Part shown: positions 43,210 through 48,617 of the stretch, piece after piece
How the letters are laid out: the number at the start of each line of letters is the position of its first letter
Numbering within the stretch: the first letter of the stretch is position 1
DNA from: an uncultured Mucispirillum sp.
GTDB lineage: Bacteria > Chrysiogenota > Deferribacteres > Deferribacterales > Mucispirillaceae
Direction of reading: 5' to 3'
Assembly (NCBI GenBank): GCA_944324465.1
Contig: CALUWI010000005.1
Coordinates: 62,001-126,000, forward strand
DNA length: 64,000 bases
Made by a program: the position numbers and the translations under genes
The notes under the pieces: model-generated
Database searches by the model: none
Seen by the model: only the letters and a program-made list of their open reading frames with translations
Told to the model about the DNA's origin: nothing

Positions 43210-43246
43210 AAAAAAAGCATACATTTATATTATGTATGCCTTTTTA
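43210..43246 (-). terminator. Terminator after nfu
   Basis: On the - strand AGGCATACAT and ATGTATGCTT form a stem around a short AT loop, followed by TTTTTTATT. It closes the Fe-S assembly operon. Confidence 0.82.
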
Positions 43247-43275: not shown

Positions 43276-43500
43276 TTATGCTGAAACTACTTCTTTAATT
43301 TCAGGAACTTCTTCTTTAATACGAGCTTCAATACCTTGTTTTAATGTCATAAGGCTGAAAGGACAGCTGCCGCATGCTCCTCTTAAAGCAACTTTTACAA
43401 CACCATCTTCAATACTGATAAGTTCTACATCACCACCATCAGCCTGTAAGCCTGGGCGAACTTTATCCAATACTTGTTGAACTTTTTCTTTTAATTCCAT
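43276..43500 (-). CDS. NifU C-terminal-like iron-sulfur carrier (Nfu)
   Basis: This 74-residue stand-alone Nfu domain has the conserved RPGLQADGGDVELI and the cluster-binding RGACGSCPFS (Cys43, Cys46). It carries or assembles a [4Fe-4S] cluster bridging a dimer and passes it to client proteins. It follows iscU by 22 nt in the Fe-S operon, and both key cysteines are intact. Confidence 0.93.
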   Translation of the reverse strand: MELKEKVQQVLDKVRPGLQADGGDVELISIEDGVVKVALRGACGSCPFSLMTLKQGIEARIKEEVPEIKEVVSA

Positions 43501-43522: not shown

Positions 43523-43960
43523 TTATTCAGCATCTTTTTTTAATTCAGCTTTCATGCTGTCAACAATTGATGCATCTTTACCTTGTTTTGTATAGTAATC
43601 TTTTAATGCAGCTTCTACTGCTTCTTCTGCCATAACTGAGCAGTGGATTTTTGCAGGTGGTAAGCCACCTAATGCATCAACAATAGCTTGGTTTGTAAGT
43701 TTTAATGCATCTTCTACTTTTGCTCCTTTTAACATTTCTGTAGTCATAGAGCTTGATGCAATAGCTGCTCCACAGCCAAAAGTTTTAAAAGTTGAATTTT
43801 CGATAACTCCATCGCTGTTCACTTTTAAATATAATTTCATTACATCACCGCAAGATGGGTTGCCTACTTCGCCAACACCATTTGCATCTTCAATTTCTCC
43901 CATATTTCTTGGGTTTGTGAAGTGATCCATAACTGTATCACTATATGGTCCTGCTGCCAT
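43523..43960 (-). CDS. iscU: Iron-sulfur cluster scaffold IscU/NifU N-terminal type
   Basis: The 145-residue scaffold has the three ligand cysteines: Cys37 in NPSCGD (with Asp39), Cys63 in TFGCGAAIASSS and Cys107 in KIHCSVMAEEA. This is the canonical IscU set. There is a short Lys/Asp-rich C-terminal tail. It builds [2Fe-2S]/[4Fe-4S] clusters using sulfur from a cysteine desulfurase. The partner NifS homologue is encoded 20 nt upstream but is altered at its PLP site. Confidence 0.95.
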   Translation of the reverse strand: MAAGPYSDTVMDHFTNPRNMGEIEDANGVGEVGNPSCGDVMKLYLKVNSDGVIENSTFKTFGCGAAIASSSMTTEMLKGAKVEDALKLTNQAIVDALGGLPPAKIHCSVMAEEAVEAALKDYYTKQGKDASIVDSMKAELKKDAE

Positions 43961-43980: not shown

Positions 43981-45180
43981 TTATTTTTTTATTTTTGACG
44001 GGTCAAATGCCGGGCTCATTGCACAAAGTTTATCAATAATCTCCGGACTTACTTTTAACACATGGTCAATATCTTCTTCTTCAATATATTTAGAAAGACT
44101 CATAGTTATTGAGCCTGCACAAATATCTGTAGGTACACCAACAGCTGTTAATACATGAGATGCCTGTAAATCATCTTCATCTTCTGCTAATATGTTAGAT
44201 GAACATGCTGAACCACTGGCACAATATACACCTTTTTGAGCATACCACATTAAAAGTGATTCACCTTCAATATACTCTACCCAAAAGCTCACATGATAAG
44301 GAAGTCTGTTTTCTATATCACCAGTAATATGCAGAAAATCATACTGTTCTGTTAAACCTTTAATTAATTTATTTCTTAATTTTGTAAGTTTTACAGTATA
44401 TTCTGCCATTTCATTTTTAGCAATTTCGCATGCTTTTCCAAGTCCAACAATAGCAGGTACATTTTCACTACCACTTCTTATGCCTCTTTCCTGAAAACCA
44501 CCATCAAAAAGTGGAGCAAGTTTTACATCAGGTGCAACATATAAAGCTGCAGCTCCTCTTATACCATAAAAATTTTGTGCTGCAATAGTTAATGTTGATG
44601 CATTTATTTTTTTCACATCAATATCAATAAAACCGCATGATGCAACAGCATCTACATGGAAATGAACACCTTTTTCTTTGCATATTTTACCAATAGCTTC
44701 AATATCCTGAATAACACCAATTTCTGGATTTGCATGAGCAATAGCAACAAGAGCTGTATCATCTTTTATTGCTTTTGCAATACTTTCTGGTGAAACCCTG
44801 CCATTTTTATCAACAGGCAGTTTTGTAAAAGTATAACCATAGTTAGTTAACTTTAATACTGGGTTTTGAATTGAATAGTGCTCTATTTCACTTATAACTA
44901 TATGTTTTTTATTACCACTTAAAGCCATAACACCTTTAACAGCCATATTGTTTGATTCTGTACCGTTAGAAGTGAATATGATACTTTCAGGTTTTTCAGC
45001 CCCGATTAAATCTGCAACTTGTTTTCTTGCTTGATTTAATGCACTGTAACTTTCCCTGCCAAGTGGATAAAAATGAGCTGCTGGGTTGCCATATTTTTCT
45101 GTTAAATAAGGCATAACTGCTTCAACAACTCGTGCATCTGGTTTTGTTCCAGCTATATTATCTAAATAAATTGGATTCAT
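43981..45180 (-). CDS. NifS/IscS cysteine desulfurase homologue lacking the PLP lysine
   Basis: The 399-residue fold-type I aminotransferase aligns with IscS over its length: FTSNGTESNNMAVKG, HANPEIGVIQDIEAIG, FHVDAVAS and ERGIRSGSENVPAIVG. The sulfur-carrying cysteine loop ASGSACSS (Cys326) is intact. However, the segment that in IscS is S-G-H-K-I-Y-G-P-K-G reads A-A-Q202-N203-F-Y-G-I-R-G, so the Schiff-base Lys and its His are gone (codons CAA AAT at 44572-44577). EHK is EHY, and the Arg of SIRFSLG is Thr in SITMSLS. It sits in operon with iscU and nfu. Desulfurase activity by the known mechanism is doubtful; role unknown. Confidence 0.85.
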   Translation of the reverse strand: MNPIYLDNIAGTKPDARVVEAVMPYLTEKYGNPAAHFYPLGRESYSALNQARKQVADLIGAEKPESIIFTSNGTESNNMAVKGVMALSGNKKHIVISEIEHYSIQNPVLKLTNYGYTFTKLPVDKNGRVSPESIAKAIKDDTALVAIAHANPEIGVIQDIEAIGKICKEKGVHFHVDAVASCGFIDIDVKKINASTLTIAAQNFYGIRGAAALYVAPDVKLAPLFDGGFQERGIRSGSENVPAIVGLGKACEIAKNEMAEYTVKLTKLRNKLIKGLTEQYDFLHITGDIENRLPYHVSFWVEYIEGESLLMWYAQKGVYCASGSACSSNILAEDEDDLQASHVLTAVGVPTDICAGSITMSLSKYIEEEDIDHVLKVSPEIIDKLCAMSPAFDPSKIKK

Positions 45181-45980
45181 TAAATTACCTCTTTCATTTG
45201 TTTAATAATATCTTCTATTAAAACTCGAACATAATCTCCAACAAAAGTAAGACCATTTCTTCTTGGAATTACAGTAATATCACTGCGTTCAGAAACATCT
45301 GATGCAGTAAAAAAACTTTCTGTTGGAAAATATCCTTCGTCATCTTTTAACCCAAACATATCTTTTGCAAAAACATCCATTTCAAATACAGTAGATAATG
45401 GAGAAATTCTAATAGATATATCGCCACCTGAAGCAGCAAAATCATCAACAGTTTTACCTACTGGAAGACCTGCTGTAACAGGATTATAATGCTTATTAAA
45501 AGCTATTCTGTTATGAAAAACTAAACTTTCAGCTTCATCAAAAGTAAAAATACTTCTTGTCTGCTGCATTAAATCTTCAACACCCTGCCTGCCGTAAATA
45601 CATACAGGTAAAGACAATACAACAGAAACATCAGCTACAGGCACTGCAATATTTCTTAAAATTTTTCTAACAGGCTCATATACTTTAAATACTTCTGCAT
45701 CTGGAGAAAATTCATAACCAGTAATATCAATAATAGTGCCGTCAAAATTTTTAATAATTTTTTCATCATGCATTGGTTTTGCAAGCATAATTAAAAGTTC
45801 TGCATCTTTTAAAAGTGATAAATCTGTTTCTACATACCCTTCTGCACTATCTTCTAATGATTCTGCAAATTCTTTATCTCCAAATATAGTATATTCTAAA
45901 AGTGGAAATTCTTCTTCTATTTTAGATAGAAAATCCAGTAATAATAAATAATCATTAATAAAAATCGCTGTTTTTAACAT
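45180..45980 (-). CDS. Aspartate-semialdehyde dehydrogenase/Usg-like protein without catalytic residues
   Basis: The 266-residue C-terminal half matches ASADH/Usg: LPVCIYGRQGVEDLMQQT, then NRIAFNKHYNP, and late SDITVIPRRNGLTFVGDYVR followed by a long helix. The N-terminal Rossmann GxxGxxG loop is not recognisable and the catalytic Asn-Cys is missing; the only Cys is in LPVCIYG. The protein is shorter than ASADH (~340). It overlaps the NifS homologue start by 1 nt, so the pair is coupled. Function unknown; a structural or regulatory partner of the Fe-S set is possible. Confidence 0.65.
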   Translation of the reverse strand: MLKTAIFINDYLLLLDFLSKIEEEFPLLEYTIFGDKEFAESLEDSAEGYVETDLSLLKDAELLIMLAKPMHDEKIIKNFDGTIIDITGYEFSPDAEVFKVYEPVRKILRNIAVPVADVSVVLSLPVCIYGRQGVEDLMQQTRSIFTFDEAESLVFHNRIAFNKHYNPVTAGLPVGKTVDDFAASGGDISIRISPLSTVFEMDVFAKDMFGLKDDEGYFPTESFFTASDVSERSDITVIPRRNGLTFVGDYVRVLIEDIIKQMKEVI

Positions 45981-45998
45981 TATATATAAACCTTTAAC

Positions 45999-46943
45999 TT
46001 ATCTTCTAATTAATTCTAGTTTGCCGTCTTGTGCTTCATAATTTAATATACGAACAACATTTCTACTGCCAAAGTTAGAATATTCCTGTCCATTATATTC
46101 CATTGAGACTGCAACAGCATTACCAATTTCTATTCTAAATGTTTTATCAAATTCTATTTCTATTTCTGTGCCCCGTCTTGCATTAACTTCATTTTCTTCA
46201 CCTTTATCTGTGCTGTATTTAAACCAGCAGTTTTCAGAGAATTTTACTTTTACTTTTTCTGGTGATAAAACAACAGGTGTTGGAATAGTTTGTGCAAATA
46301 ATGGGTCAATATATGCTGGCTCTGTAGTATTATCATAAGCATTTGTTGTCATATTATCTGTATTATTATCAGCATAAATTGATGTGCCGTAATAATTAAA
46401 ATATGAATTATTATCGCTTGTATTATCACCTGCAAAAGTAACAGCAGGTTCTGGCTCTACAACTGTAGCAGGCACTGGAGTATCTACTGCAGTATTGCTG
46501 CTGCCGATAGTAATTGTATTATTTAGCATACTGCTGGAATACACATAATAGCCACCATAGCCAATAAGCAGCAGAAATATAATAAGCAGTATTAATGTAA
46601 CTGGTTTTTTACTGCTTTTTTTCTCATTTTCTAAAAAACTTGTTTCGGTAGTAGATGGAGTATATTCTTCCTGAGTAATATCTTTTGGCTGTGCTGGTGC
46701 TCCTTCTTTAGGACATTCTGCAGAAAAAAGCGGCCAAACAACATTTTCATAATCTAAATTTAAAAACTCTGCATATTTTTTTACAAATCCATAAGCATGT
46801 AAATATGATGGTAAATCTTTAAATCTTCCTTCTTCTATTATTTTAATAAAATTTTCTCTGATTCTTGTATCATCAACTACATCTTGTATTGATTTTTTCT
46901 GTTCTTCCCTAGTTGATTTTAAAAGATTTCCTAATTCACTCAT
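45999..46943 (-). CDS. rodZ: RodZ-like cytoskeletal membrane protein
   Basis: Start ATG 46943 follows GGAG by 7 nt, giving 314 residues; longer readings from 47042 lack a ribosome site. The N-terminal HTH (MSELGNLLKSTREEQKKSIQ, residues 1-75), one membrane helix near 113-133 (VTLILLIIFLLLIGYGGYYV), an Asn/Thr-rich linker and a periplasmic DUF4115 domain (KFSENCWFKYS..., about 230-314) match RodZ. It links MreB to the wall elongation machinery. The linker is of low complexity. Confidence 0.85.
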   Translation of the reverse strand: MSELGNLLKSTREEQKKSIQDVVDDTRIRENFIKIIEEGRFKDLPSYLHAYGFVKKYAEFLNLDYENVVWPLFSAECPKEGAPAQPKDITQEEYTPSTTETSFLENEKKSSKKPVTLILLIIFLLLIGYGGYYVYSSSMLNNTITIGSSNTAVDTPVPATVVEPEPAVTFAGDNTSDNNSYFNYYGTSIYADNNTDNMTTNAYDNTTEPAYIDPLFAQTIPTPVVLSPEKVKVKFSENCWFKYSTDKGEENEVNARRGTEIEIEFDKTFRIEIGNAVAVSMEYNGQEYSNFGSRNVVRILNYEAQDGKLELIRR

Positions 46944-47086
46944 TATGCTCTCCATAACTACTTCGTACCATTTCACAGAGTAGTCTACTATTTTTCTATA
47001 TTTTTTCAACATATTTTTTTCATTACATTGAAAAAAATTCATATTTCATACAAAATATTATATATATAACTATGTTTATCAATAAT

Positions 47087-47857
47087 TTATATATTATTAT
47101 AATACAGCATCATAAGCCCGTCTAAAGTAAGGTTTGGCTCATATACTGCTTTAAACTCCATATCATTTGATATATCATTACCTAATCCGCCGGTAATAAT
47201 TACATTTACTTTTTCATCAGCAAATTCTTCCTGCAGCACCCTTCTTAATAGTCCGTTTATCATTTCTAAATATCCAAAATAGATACCAGACTGTATATGG
47301 TGAACAGTATTTTTGCCAATAACAGATGCAGGTTTTTTAATGCTTACTTCTGGCAGCTGGGCAGTATTTGAGCGAAGCATTTTAGATGCAAGCATAATAC
47401 CAGGGCATATTATACCACCTATATATGCTCCATTTTTATTAATAATATCAAAAGTTGTAGCAGTACCAAAATCAATCACTATACATGGCTTGCCGTATTT
47501 TTTTACACCTGCAACAGCATTTGCAATTCTGTCTGCTCCCACTTCTTTTGGATTATCTACCTGCATAGTAATACCTGTTTTTATTTCGCTGTTAACAAGC
47601 AGGGCATTTATTTTTAAATATTTTTTTATCATTCTTGTAAATGTATACTGCAGCTGTGGCACAACACTGCCAATAATTGCACCTTCAATATCAGCAACAG
47701 GTACATTATTTCTTTCAAGTAAAGTCAGCAAAAGGCTTGCATATTCATCAGTAGTTTTATCATGTATAGACTGAATACGGAATTTATATATTAATTTATC
47801 ATTATTATATATACCAAAAACAGTATTTGTATTACCTATATCAACCGTTAAAATCAT
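47087..47857 (-). CDS. coaX: Type III pantothenate kinase
   Basis: CoaX phosphorylates pantothenate, the first step of CoA synthesis, downstream of panB/panC. The 256-residue ASKHA fold has LTVDIGNTNTVFGIY (phosphate loop), NPKEVGADRIANAV, VIDFGTATTFDII and GGIICPGI. Type III enzymes need no feedback by CoA. The ATG is inside the birA 3' end by 17 nt. Confidence 0.95.
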   Translation of the reverse strand: MILTVDIGNTNTVFGIYNNDKLIYKFRIQSIHDKTTDEYASLLLTLLERNNVPVADIEGAIIGSVVPQLQYTFTRMIKKYLKINALLVNSEIKTGITMQVDNPKEVGADRIANAVAGVKKYGKPCIVIDFGTATTFDIINKNGAYIGGIICPGIMLASKMLRSNTAQLPEVSIKKPASVIGKNTVHHIQSGIYFGYLEMINGLLRRVLQEEFADEKVNVIITGGLGNDISNDMEFKAVYEPNLTLDGLMMLYYNNI

Positions 47858-48617
47858 ACCCTATCTCTCCAACATTTATATTTGATATTTGATTTGTATT
47901 AATATCCTGCACAATCAGTTCTCCATTTGGCAGTATTCCTTTTTCTATCATTTCTTTTTTTATGCCGTTTATATGAACAGATATTTTTTTATTATAATTT
48001 GCAGAATATTTCTGCCATAAATCTTCTATTTTTAATGCACCATCTTTATATTTATTAAGCATCTGCTCCATAGTGTTTAAAATCTCAGCTAAAATCAGCT
48101 CTTTTTTTATTTCCTTATTAGTATTTAAATAAACTGATGTTGCTCTATAAGCAATATCTTCAGGAAAATCTTTATTAAATACATTAATACCTGCACCAAA
48201 AACTATTTTAGCAGCATTATTGCCAGTAAAAGATGCTTCAAGCAGCATACCACTTACTTTTTTATCATTTATAACACAGTCATTAGGCCATTTTAATTTT
48301 GTTTCTGCATATAATGAAATACCGTTACATACAGAATAACCTGCAATAATATTAAATGGCATAAGCATTTCAGGGGAAAGTCCAGTTAATAAAATAGAGA
48401 ATATTAATGATGAGCCTGTATCTATCCAGCTTCTGCCGCTTCTGCCGCGGCCTTTTGTCTGTAACGATGTTATTACTACAGAGCCATAAGAAAACTCTCC
48501 ATTAAGTAAAATATCATTTGTAGATGTAACTTTATCATAAATATATAAATTTTTACCAAAACTTAAAGTATTAAGTGAGCTATAAAAAAGAGATTTATCA
48601 AACAATTTTACTACCAT
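47841..48617 (-). CDS. birA: Biotin--[acetyl-CoA-carboxylase] ligase
   Basis: This 258-residue ligase lacks the N-terminal HTH repressor domain. The biotin/ATP loop is TKGRGRSGRSWIDTGSSLIFS, followed by KLKWPNDCVINDKKVSGMLLEAS and FGAGINVF. A short C-terminal SH3-like domain (ISVHINGIKKEM) follows. It biotinylates the acetyl-CoA carboxylase carrier. birA and coaX overlap and form one unit. Unlike E. coli BirA it is not expected to repress transcription. Confidence 0.93.
   Translation of the reverse strand: MVVKLFDKSLFYSSLNTLSFGKNLYIYDKVTSTNDILLNGEFSYGSVVITSLQTKGRGRSGRSWIDTGSSLIFSILLTGLSPEMLMPFNIIAGYSVCNGISLYAETKLKWPNDCVINDKKVSGMLLEASFTGNNAAKIVFGAGINVFNKDFPEDIAYRATSVYLNTNKEIKKELILAEILNTMEQMLNKYKDGALKIEDLWQKYSANYNKKISVHINGIKKEMIEKGILPNGELIVQDINTNQISNINVGEIGYDFNG

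Follow-up and report, generated by a model that had tools for sequence, protein, structure and literature searches.

The window analysed here, a stretch of 64,000 nucleotides from an uncultured Mucispirillum sp. (Deferribacterota), carries on its minus strand a gene cluster that reads, in this order, birA-like, coaX-like, RodZ-like, Usg-like, NifS homologue, IscU and Nfu and ends in a terminator-like hairpin; the same order recurs in other families of the order (Table 1). A preliminary description of this DNA had presented the Usg-like gene and the gene for the NifS homologue as fused by overlap. The overlap of 1 nt between the stop codon of the former and the start codon of the latter is there, but "fused" overstates it, as these are two separate genes whose spacing in relatives is mostly between -17 and +17 nt, with overlaps of -4 and -1 nt recurring. 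Two spacings depart from this range, one in G045, where the NifS frame is split into two pieces, and one at L071, where that frame has a late and hence uncertain start.

Table 1. Features of the gene cluster, in window coordinates
Feature	Position	Strand	Remarks
Terminator-like hairpin, then a T run, after nfu	43217..43239	-	The scan lists the + strand; Ts follow on the - strand too
Nfu-type protein (NifU C-terminal-like, CGSCP motif)	43276..43500	-	Same order in relatives
IscU/NifU_N scaffold	43523..43960	-	145 aa; only full-length scaffold of its type in the genome
NifS/MisS homologue	43981..45180	-	399 aa; PLP lysine replaced by Asn203 (AAQNFYG); Cys326 loop GSACSSN kept
TAATG	45178..45182	-	One base, the A at 45180, ends the Usg-like stop codon TAA and begins the ATG of the NifS homologue
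Usg-like protein, putative pseudo-ASADH	45180..45980	-	266 aa; ATG start
Predicted domains of the Usg-like protein			Degenerate Rossmann N-domain, residues ~1-100; ASADH C-domain, ~115-245; C-terminal helix returning to the N-domain
RodZ-like HTH membrane protein	45999..47042	-	Lies upstream; conserved throughout the class
Type III pantothenate kinase (coaX)-like	47087..47857	-	Read from sequence; order shared with L207, L208 and L211
Biotin-protein ligase (birA)-like	47841..48617	-	Read from sequence; order shared with L207, L208 and L211

Within the genus the dN/dS of the Usg-like gene is 0.10-0.16. The gene is therefore not decaying, which rules out a relic; it is a real open reading frame under purifying selection. 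Between families the Usg-like protein retains 26-33% identity as against 58-66% for the NifS homologue, and so evolves about twice as fast.

The Usg-like protein and the ASADH fold

Single-sequence searches with the Usg-like protein give weak matches to ASADH and Usg proteins. Pfam searches find no family for it (a DUF2240 match with an E-value of 0.076, below the cut-off, was discarded as chance), and its score of 17.4 bits against the Usg-1 model of NCBIfam does not reach the cut-off of 284; weak matches to Usg-1 in NCBIfam are found in 22 of the 28 members of the Usg-like family. A profile built from these 28 sequences detects the PDB entry 2hjs, "USG-1 protein homolog", with an E-value of 1.1e-5 and the ASADH 2qz9 with an E-value of 4.9e-4. 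Moreover, in a profile-profile alignment (hhalign) the family matches the ASADH of its own genome over residues 1-254 with 98.4% probability (E=5.8e-15), while NifS, used as a control in the same comparison, scores a probability of 0.1%.

For the window protein AlphaFold2 gives a weak model (mean pLDDT 53.5; good only in the N-domain and the last helix, weak in the C-domain), because it rested on the eight sequences that were admissible. Its structural neighbours, as returned by VIA, are ASADH, ArgC or GAPDH, with 2hjs at the top (Z 10.5 over 218 residues, 4.9 A). A homologue from another family yielded a better model (pLDDT 61.3), which VIA superimposes on ASADH 2r00 with a Z of 15.9 over 239 residues at 3.5 A. 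Both the best PDB profile match and, for the window model, the first VIA row thus go to entry 2hjs, with the ASADH rows tied to it within Z 1. The profiles and models together predict a full-length ASADH superfamily fold, made of a Rossmann N-domain and an ASADH/GAPDH-type C-domain. The preliminary description had placed the ASADH/Usg resemblance in the C-terminal half. The motifs quoted there stand, and the profile match to 2hjs puts them beyond chance, but the resemblance is not restricted to that half, since the N-terminal half corresponds to the ASADH Rossmann domain too; a predicted structure outside the ASADH fold, which would have counted against that description, was not obtained.

The canonical ASADH of the same genome (asd, C5:14409-14951) has an intact Gly loop, GATGAVGQ, and an intact catalytic segment, NPNCTT, neither of which is present in the Usg-like protein. 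In 25 of the 28 family members there is no Gly at residues 7-14, where the dinucleotide loop would lie, and the stretch that holds NPNCTT in ASADH is about 25 residues shorter and has no comparable segment. These losses bear out the absence of an NADP loop and of a catalytic Asn-Cys that had been noted for the window protein. If the profile alignment is followed, on which the placement depends, the position of the catalytic Gln is occupied by an invariant proline (Pro125) and that of the His by hydrophobic residues. No Cys, His or Lys is invariant among the 28 sequences: the best column for Cys reaches 32% and three sequences have no Cys at all, and the best column for Lys reaches 86%, with Arg at this site in the window protein. 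To judge from its residues, the Usg-like protein is a catalytically dead pseudo-ASADH. Dead ASADH paralogues seem to be common. Matches to a DNA pattern (L087-L199) comprise, as full-length ASADH-like proteins, at least about 50 of Acidobacteria type and at least 49, mostly alphaproteobacterial, without the catalytic Cys, mostly with P or A in its place.

A NifS homologue without the PLP lysine

For the NifS homologue we use the position numbers and residue roles of E. coli IscS. Besides the PLP lysine, the window protein has lost other residues of the pocket (N155 to P, Q183 to A, H205 to Q). Of the 50 genomes of the phylum, 44 have an orthologue. Each of the 43 distinct sequences has Asn for the lysine, within a QN motif or, in the deepest family, TN, and the further changes are N155 to P or S, Q183 to A or D, and H205 to Q or T. 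T76, His104, Asp180 and the Cys of the mobile loop are retained throughout. These counts omit L002, whose apparent Ser in the lysine column results from a one-column shift in the alignment of what is another kind of desulfurase-like protein. L002 (G000:C1:207975-209084) is a third NifS-like protein, with GHKSLYG and the loop RSGLQCSP, of a different desulfurase subfamily. A DNA motif for the lysine-less NifS, a pattern that recovers just 29 of the 43 known cases, has no match in 398 Pseudomonadota genomes. With the residues that it has, the NifS homologue would not be expected to produce sulfane sulfur through the usual PLP chemistry.

Linkage of the two genes across the phylum

By profile search the Usg-like gene is present in 34 of the 50 genomes, as a single copy each, and always immediately upstream of the lysine-less NifS; no Usg-like homologue was found away from it among these genomes. 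The juxtaposition of two altered-enzyme paralogues ahead of iscU-nfu, seen at first in the window alone, is thus real, and the pairing is ancient. Ten genomes have the lysine-less NifS without the Usg-like gene, and in the four RodZ-NifS gaps tested in genomes of this kind no remnant of it is detected. G031 and G032 have neither gene; here an ordinary NifS adjoins iscU (its lysine was read directly in G031), as if the whole system had been replaced. The two loci (L213 and L212, respectively), from two drafts of one genus, bring iscR, the ordinary NifS and iscU together. A profile match in G032 (E 0.007) is weak and was not confirmed as a member of the Usg-like family. Since the NifS homologue occurs alone in ten genomes and both genes are missing together in G031 and G032, the dependence runs one way: the Usg-like gene needs the NifS homologue, which does not need it in turn.

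In a DNA-pattern scan of 84,980 species genomes, Usg-like genes beside NifS are found, among the matches listed, only in Deferribacterota. The other matches listed are ASADH/Usg-like genes, mostly from Alphaproteobacteria and Acidobacteria, or chance, with no NifS in the stretch fetched.

Fe-S cluster assembly genes of the phylum

Nearly every one of the 50 genomes has one clear NifU_N/IscU, which adjoins the lysine-less NifS where the latter is present; none was seen in three drafts. The Mucispirillum genomes have a second, marginal and partial NifU_N match of about 22 bits. One such match, found in several of them, is L203 (G000:C6:47730-47873; E 2.8e-4), which lies in a frame of 246 residues. 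The SufBD core is absent from 48 of the 50 genomes, several closed ones included, in a search whose controls were positive in 14 of 14 genomes. A SufBD-core protein is encoded at G048:C110 and G049:C57, the only two such genomes of the phylum sample. With one clear IscU and no SufB in 48 of 50 genomes, the class probably relies on the operon of the lysine-less NifS and IscU as its main Fe-S scaffold.

A canonical, lysine-bearing NifS (HK at the site) is found in every genome sampled (20 plus others). In the genome of the window it belongs to a locus without iscU, cysE-iscR-nifS followed by a gene for a protein of 85 aa (L204:5425-7995, at about 150-153 kb of G000:C1), and the cysE-iscR-nifS arrangement recurs in many relatives.

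Discussion

We propose, giving the idea an even chance, that the Usg-like protein is a catalytically dead accessory subunit of the Usg-1 type, structural or assembly-regulating, in a minimal ISC-like machine that also comprises the lysine-less NifS/MisS homologue, IscU and Nfu. Without the PLP lysine the NifS homologue would release no sulfur from cysteine; by analogy with the IscS of A. fulgidus, it may dimerise, dock IscU and provide its loop cysteine as a ligand to the cluster. Sulfur would come either as free sulfide or from the lysine-bearing NifS encoded separately at cysE-iscR-nifS. With its C-domain, which is of the dimerisation type and retained, the Usg-like protein could bind the core of NifS and IscU, and there stabilise it or gate the assembly or transfer of clusters, possibly taking roughly the place that ISD11, frataxin or IscX have in other systems. 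Because the NifS homologue is an unlikely producer of sulfane sulfur by the usual PLP chemistry, the pair makes better sense as a scaffold component than as a donor of sulfur. Moreover, a protein with no invariant Cys, His or Lys that evolves fast and yet under purifying selection is more readily explained as an accessory subunit, structural or regulatory, than as a catalyst or a sulfur carrier, and its fast evolution suggests a peripheral more than a core role. Against this reading stands the fact that the Usg-like gene is dispensable in the ten genomes where the NifS homologue is found alone, so that not all members of the class can require its product as a subunit.

The Usg-like protein may instead be a mere operon mate, a homodimer with a new ligand or a housekeeping role that makes no contact with NifS, its linkage being inherited gene order. 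The birA, coaX and RodZ-like genes of the cluster are not Fe-S genes, and co-localisation alone could reflect the inheritance of an operon; likewise, NifS and IscU work without the Usg-like gene in the ten genomes that lack it. Nevertheless, the pair was never separated while the Usg-like proteins of families f1-f8 diverged to 26% identity, tight overlaps of -4 and -1 nt recur, and the lineage of G031 and G032 is missing both genes. We regard an operon mate as unlikely, if still to be reckoned with.

The retention of the ASADH dimerisation-domain architecture, and the presence of a canonical ASADH in the genome, could point to a heterodimer of the Usg-like protein with the true ASADH, which would tie aspartate/homocysteine metabolism to sulfur supply. 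The fixed neighbour of the Usg-like gene is, however, the NifS homologue in all genomes searched, whereas in the genome of the window the gene is separated from asd by about 93 kb of the same contig, and the ligand-binding and catalytic positions of the Usg-like protein are lost. Such a heterodimer is thus very improbable. Nor is there support for the sensing of aspartate-family or sulfur metabolism suggested in the preliminary description, as the NADP loop, the catalytic Cys segment and the Gln and His positions are all gone.

Two further roles were rejected on residue conservation. With two defective enzymes encoded side by side, and with His104 and Asp180 of the PLP pocket retained, the NifS homologue might still be an enzyme to which the Usg-like protein lends a residue in trans, such as the PLP lysine; but the Usg-like family has no invariant Lys, N155, Q183 and H205 of the NifS pocket have been lost as well, and the NifS homologue manages alone in ten genomes, all of which makes this role hardly conceivable. 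Sulfur delivery, the other role first suggested, would make the Usg-like protein a carrier of sulfur or persulfide from the sulfur source to IscU, as its place in an Fe-S operon and the thiol nucleophile of the ancestral ASADH might recommend, but the segment with the ancestral catalytic Cys is deleted and no other Cys is conserved, so that we give this role next to no credence.

A bolder reading for the whole class, which we offer tentatively as possible though doubtful, would be that two pseudoenzymes, the PLP-less NifS and the pseudo-ASADH, hold the one scaffold on which its Fe-S clusters are built, and that the sulfur comes from a physically separate canonical desulfurase or directly from sulfide. 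Sulfur release and scaffold docking would then be split between proteins, and a metabolic dehydrogenase would have been recruited as a subunit of the assembly complex. In any event, nearly all of a bacterial class has a lysine-less IscS-type protein as a fixed feature, encoded beside its sole clear IscU and in genomes that almost always lack SufB. Whether a desulfurase homologue can serve purely as a scaffold partner thereby becomes testable in bacteria, including a genus of gut symbionts. In the pseudo-ASADH there is a definite candidate for an Fe-S assembly factor that has so far gone unrecognised, and this would give a possible function to one lineage of Usg-like pseudo-dehydrogenases.

Comparison with known systems

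In the literature searched we found no paper that ties ASADH to NifS or that deals with Fe-S assembly in Deferribacteres. A known protein probably close to the Usg-like protein is Usg-1 (2hjs of Pseudomonas aeruginosa; PRK05671 and PRK08040 of NCBIfam), to which it has its best profile match and, nearly level with ASADH entries, the best fold match of the window model, and with which it shares the motifs GRxGVxEL..QT and AFN. In contrast to Usg-1, which has about 336 residues, it has 266, its score falls far under the NCBIfam cut-off, it has neither the catalytic segment nor the Gly loop, and its gene context is another. With the canonical ASADH of its own genome it shares full-length profile homology and an identical domain order.

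Lysine-less IscS proteins are known from a few archaea: the IscS of A. fulgidus, in which the lysine is Asp, has no desulfurase activity and contributes a Cys ligand to the cluster of IscU, and IscS1 of M. acetivorans likewise has no lysine (PMC7585200). The window NifS homologue, which matches A. fulgidus IscS (4eb5) with 293 bits over residues 5-392 by phmmer, has the features of such a scaffold protein: its lysine is lost, its Cys is kept and its gene adjoins iscU. It therefore resembles the Archaeoglobus fulgidus IscS-IscU complex (4eb5/4eb7) and Methanosarcina acetivorans IscS1 in the absent PLP lysine, the retained loop Cys and the IscU partner; for the archaeal proteins a Cys ligand in place of sulfur has been proposed or shown. 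The Deferribacterota homologue differs from that of A. fulgidus in having Asn where the latter has Asp, and from both archaeal systems in its bacterial hosts, in adjoining the sole clear scaffold with SufB almost always absent, and in the added pseudo-ASADH gene. The MIS system (MisS-MisU) is a minimal Fe-S pair of an IscS-type and an IscU-type protein, in which MisS is described as a sulfur-supplying cysteine desulfurase (PMC10653786, PMC12442378, PMC11559095). The operon described here is like MIS in being a minimal machine with such a pair, in genomes with one clear IscU and, in 48 of 50, no SufB, but it differs in that its NifS homologue has no PLP lysine and in the added Nfu and pseudo-ASADH genes. 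By analogy, the operon is best read as a variant of the A. fulgidus IscS and MIS-like systems to which a pseudo-ASADH has been added.
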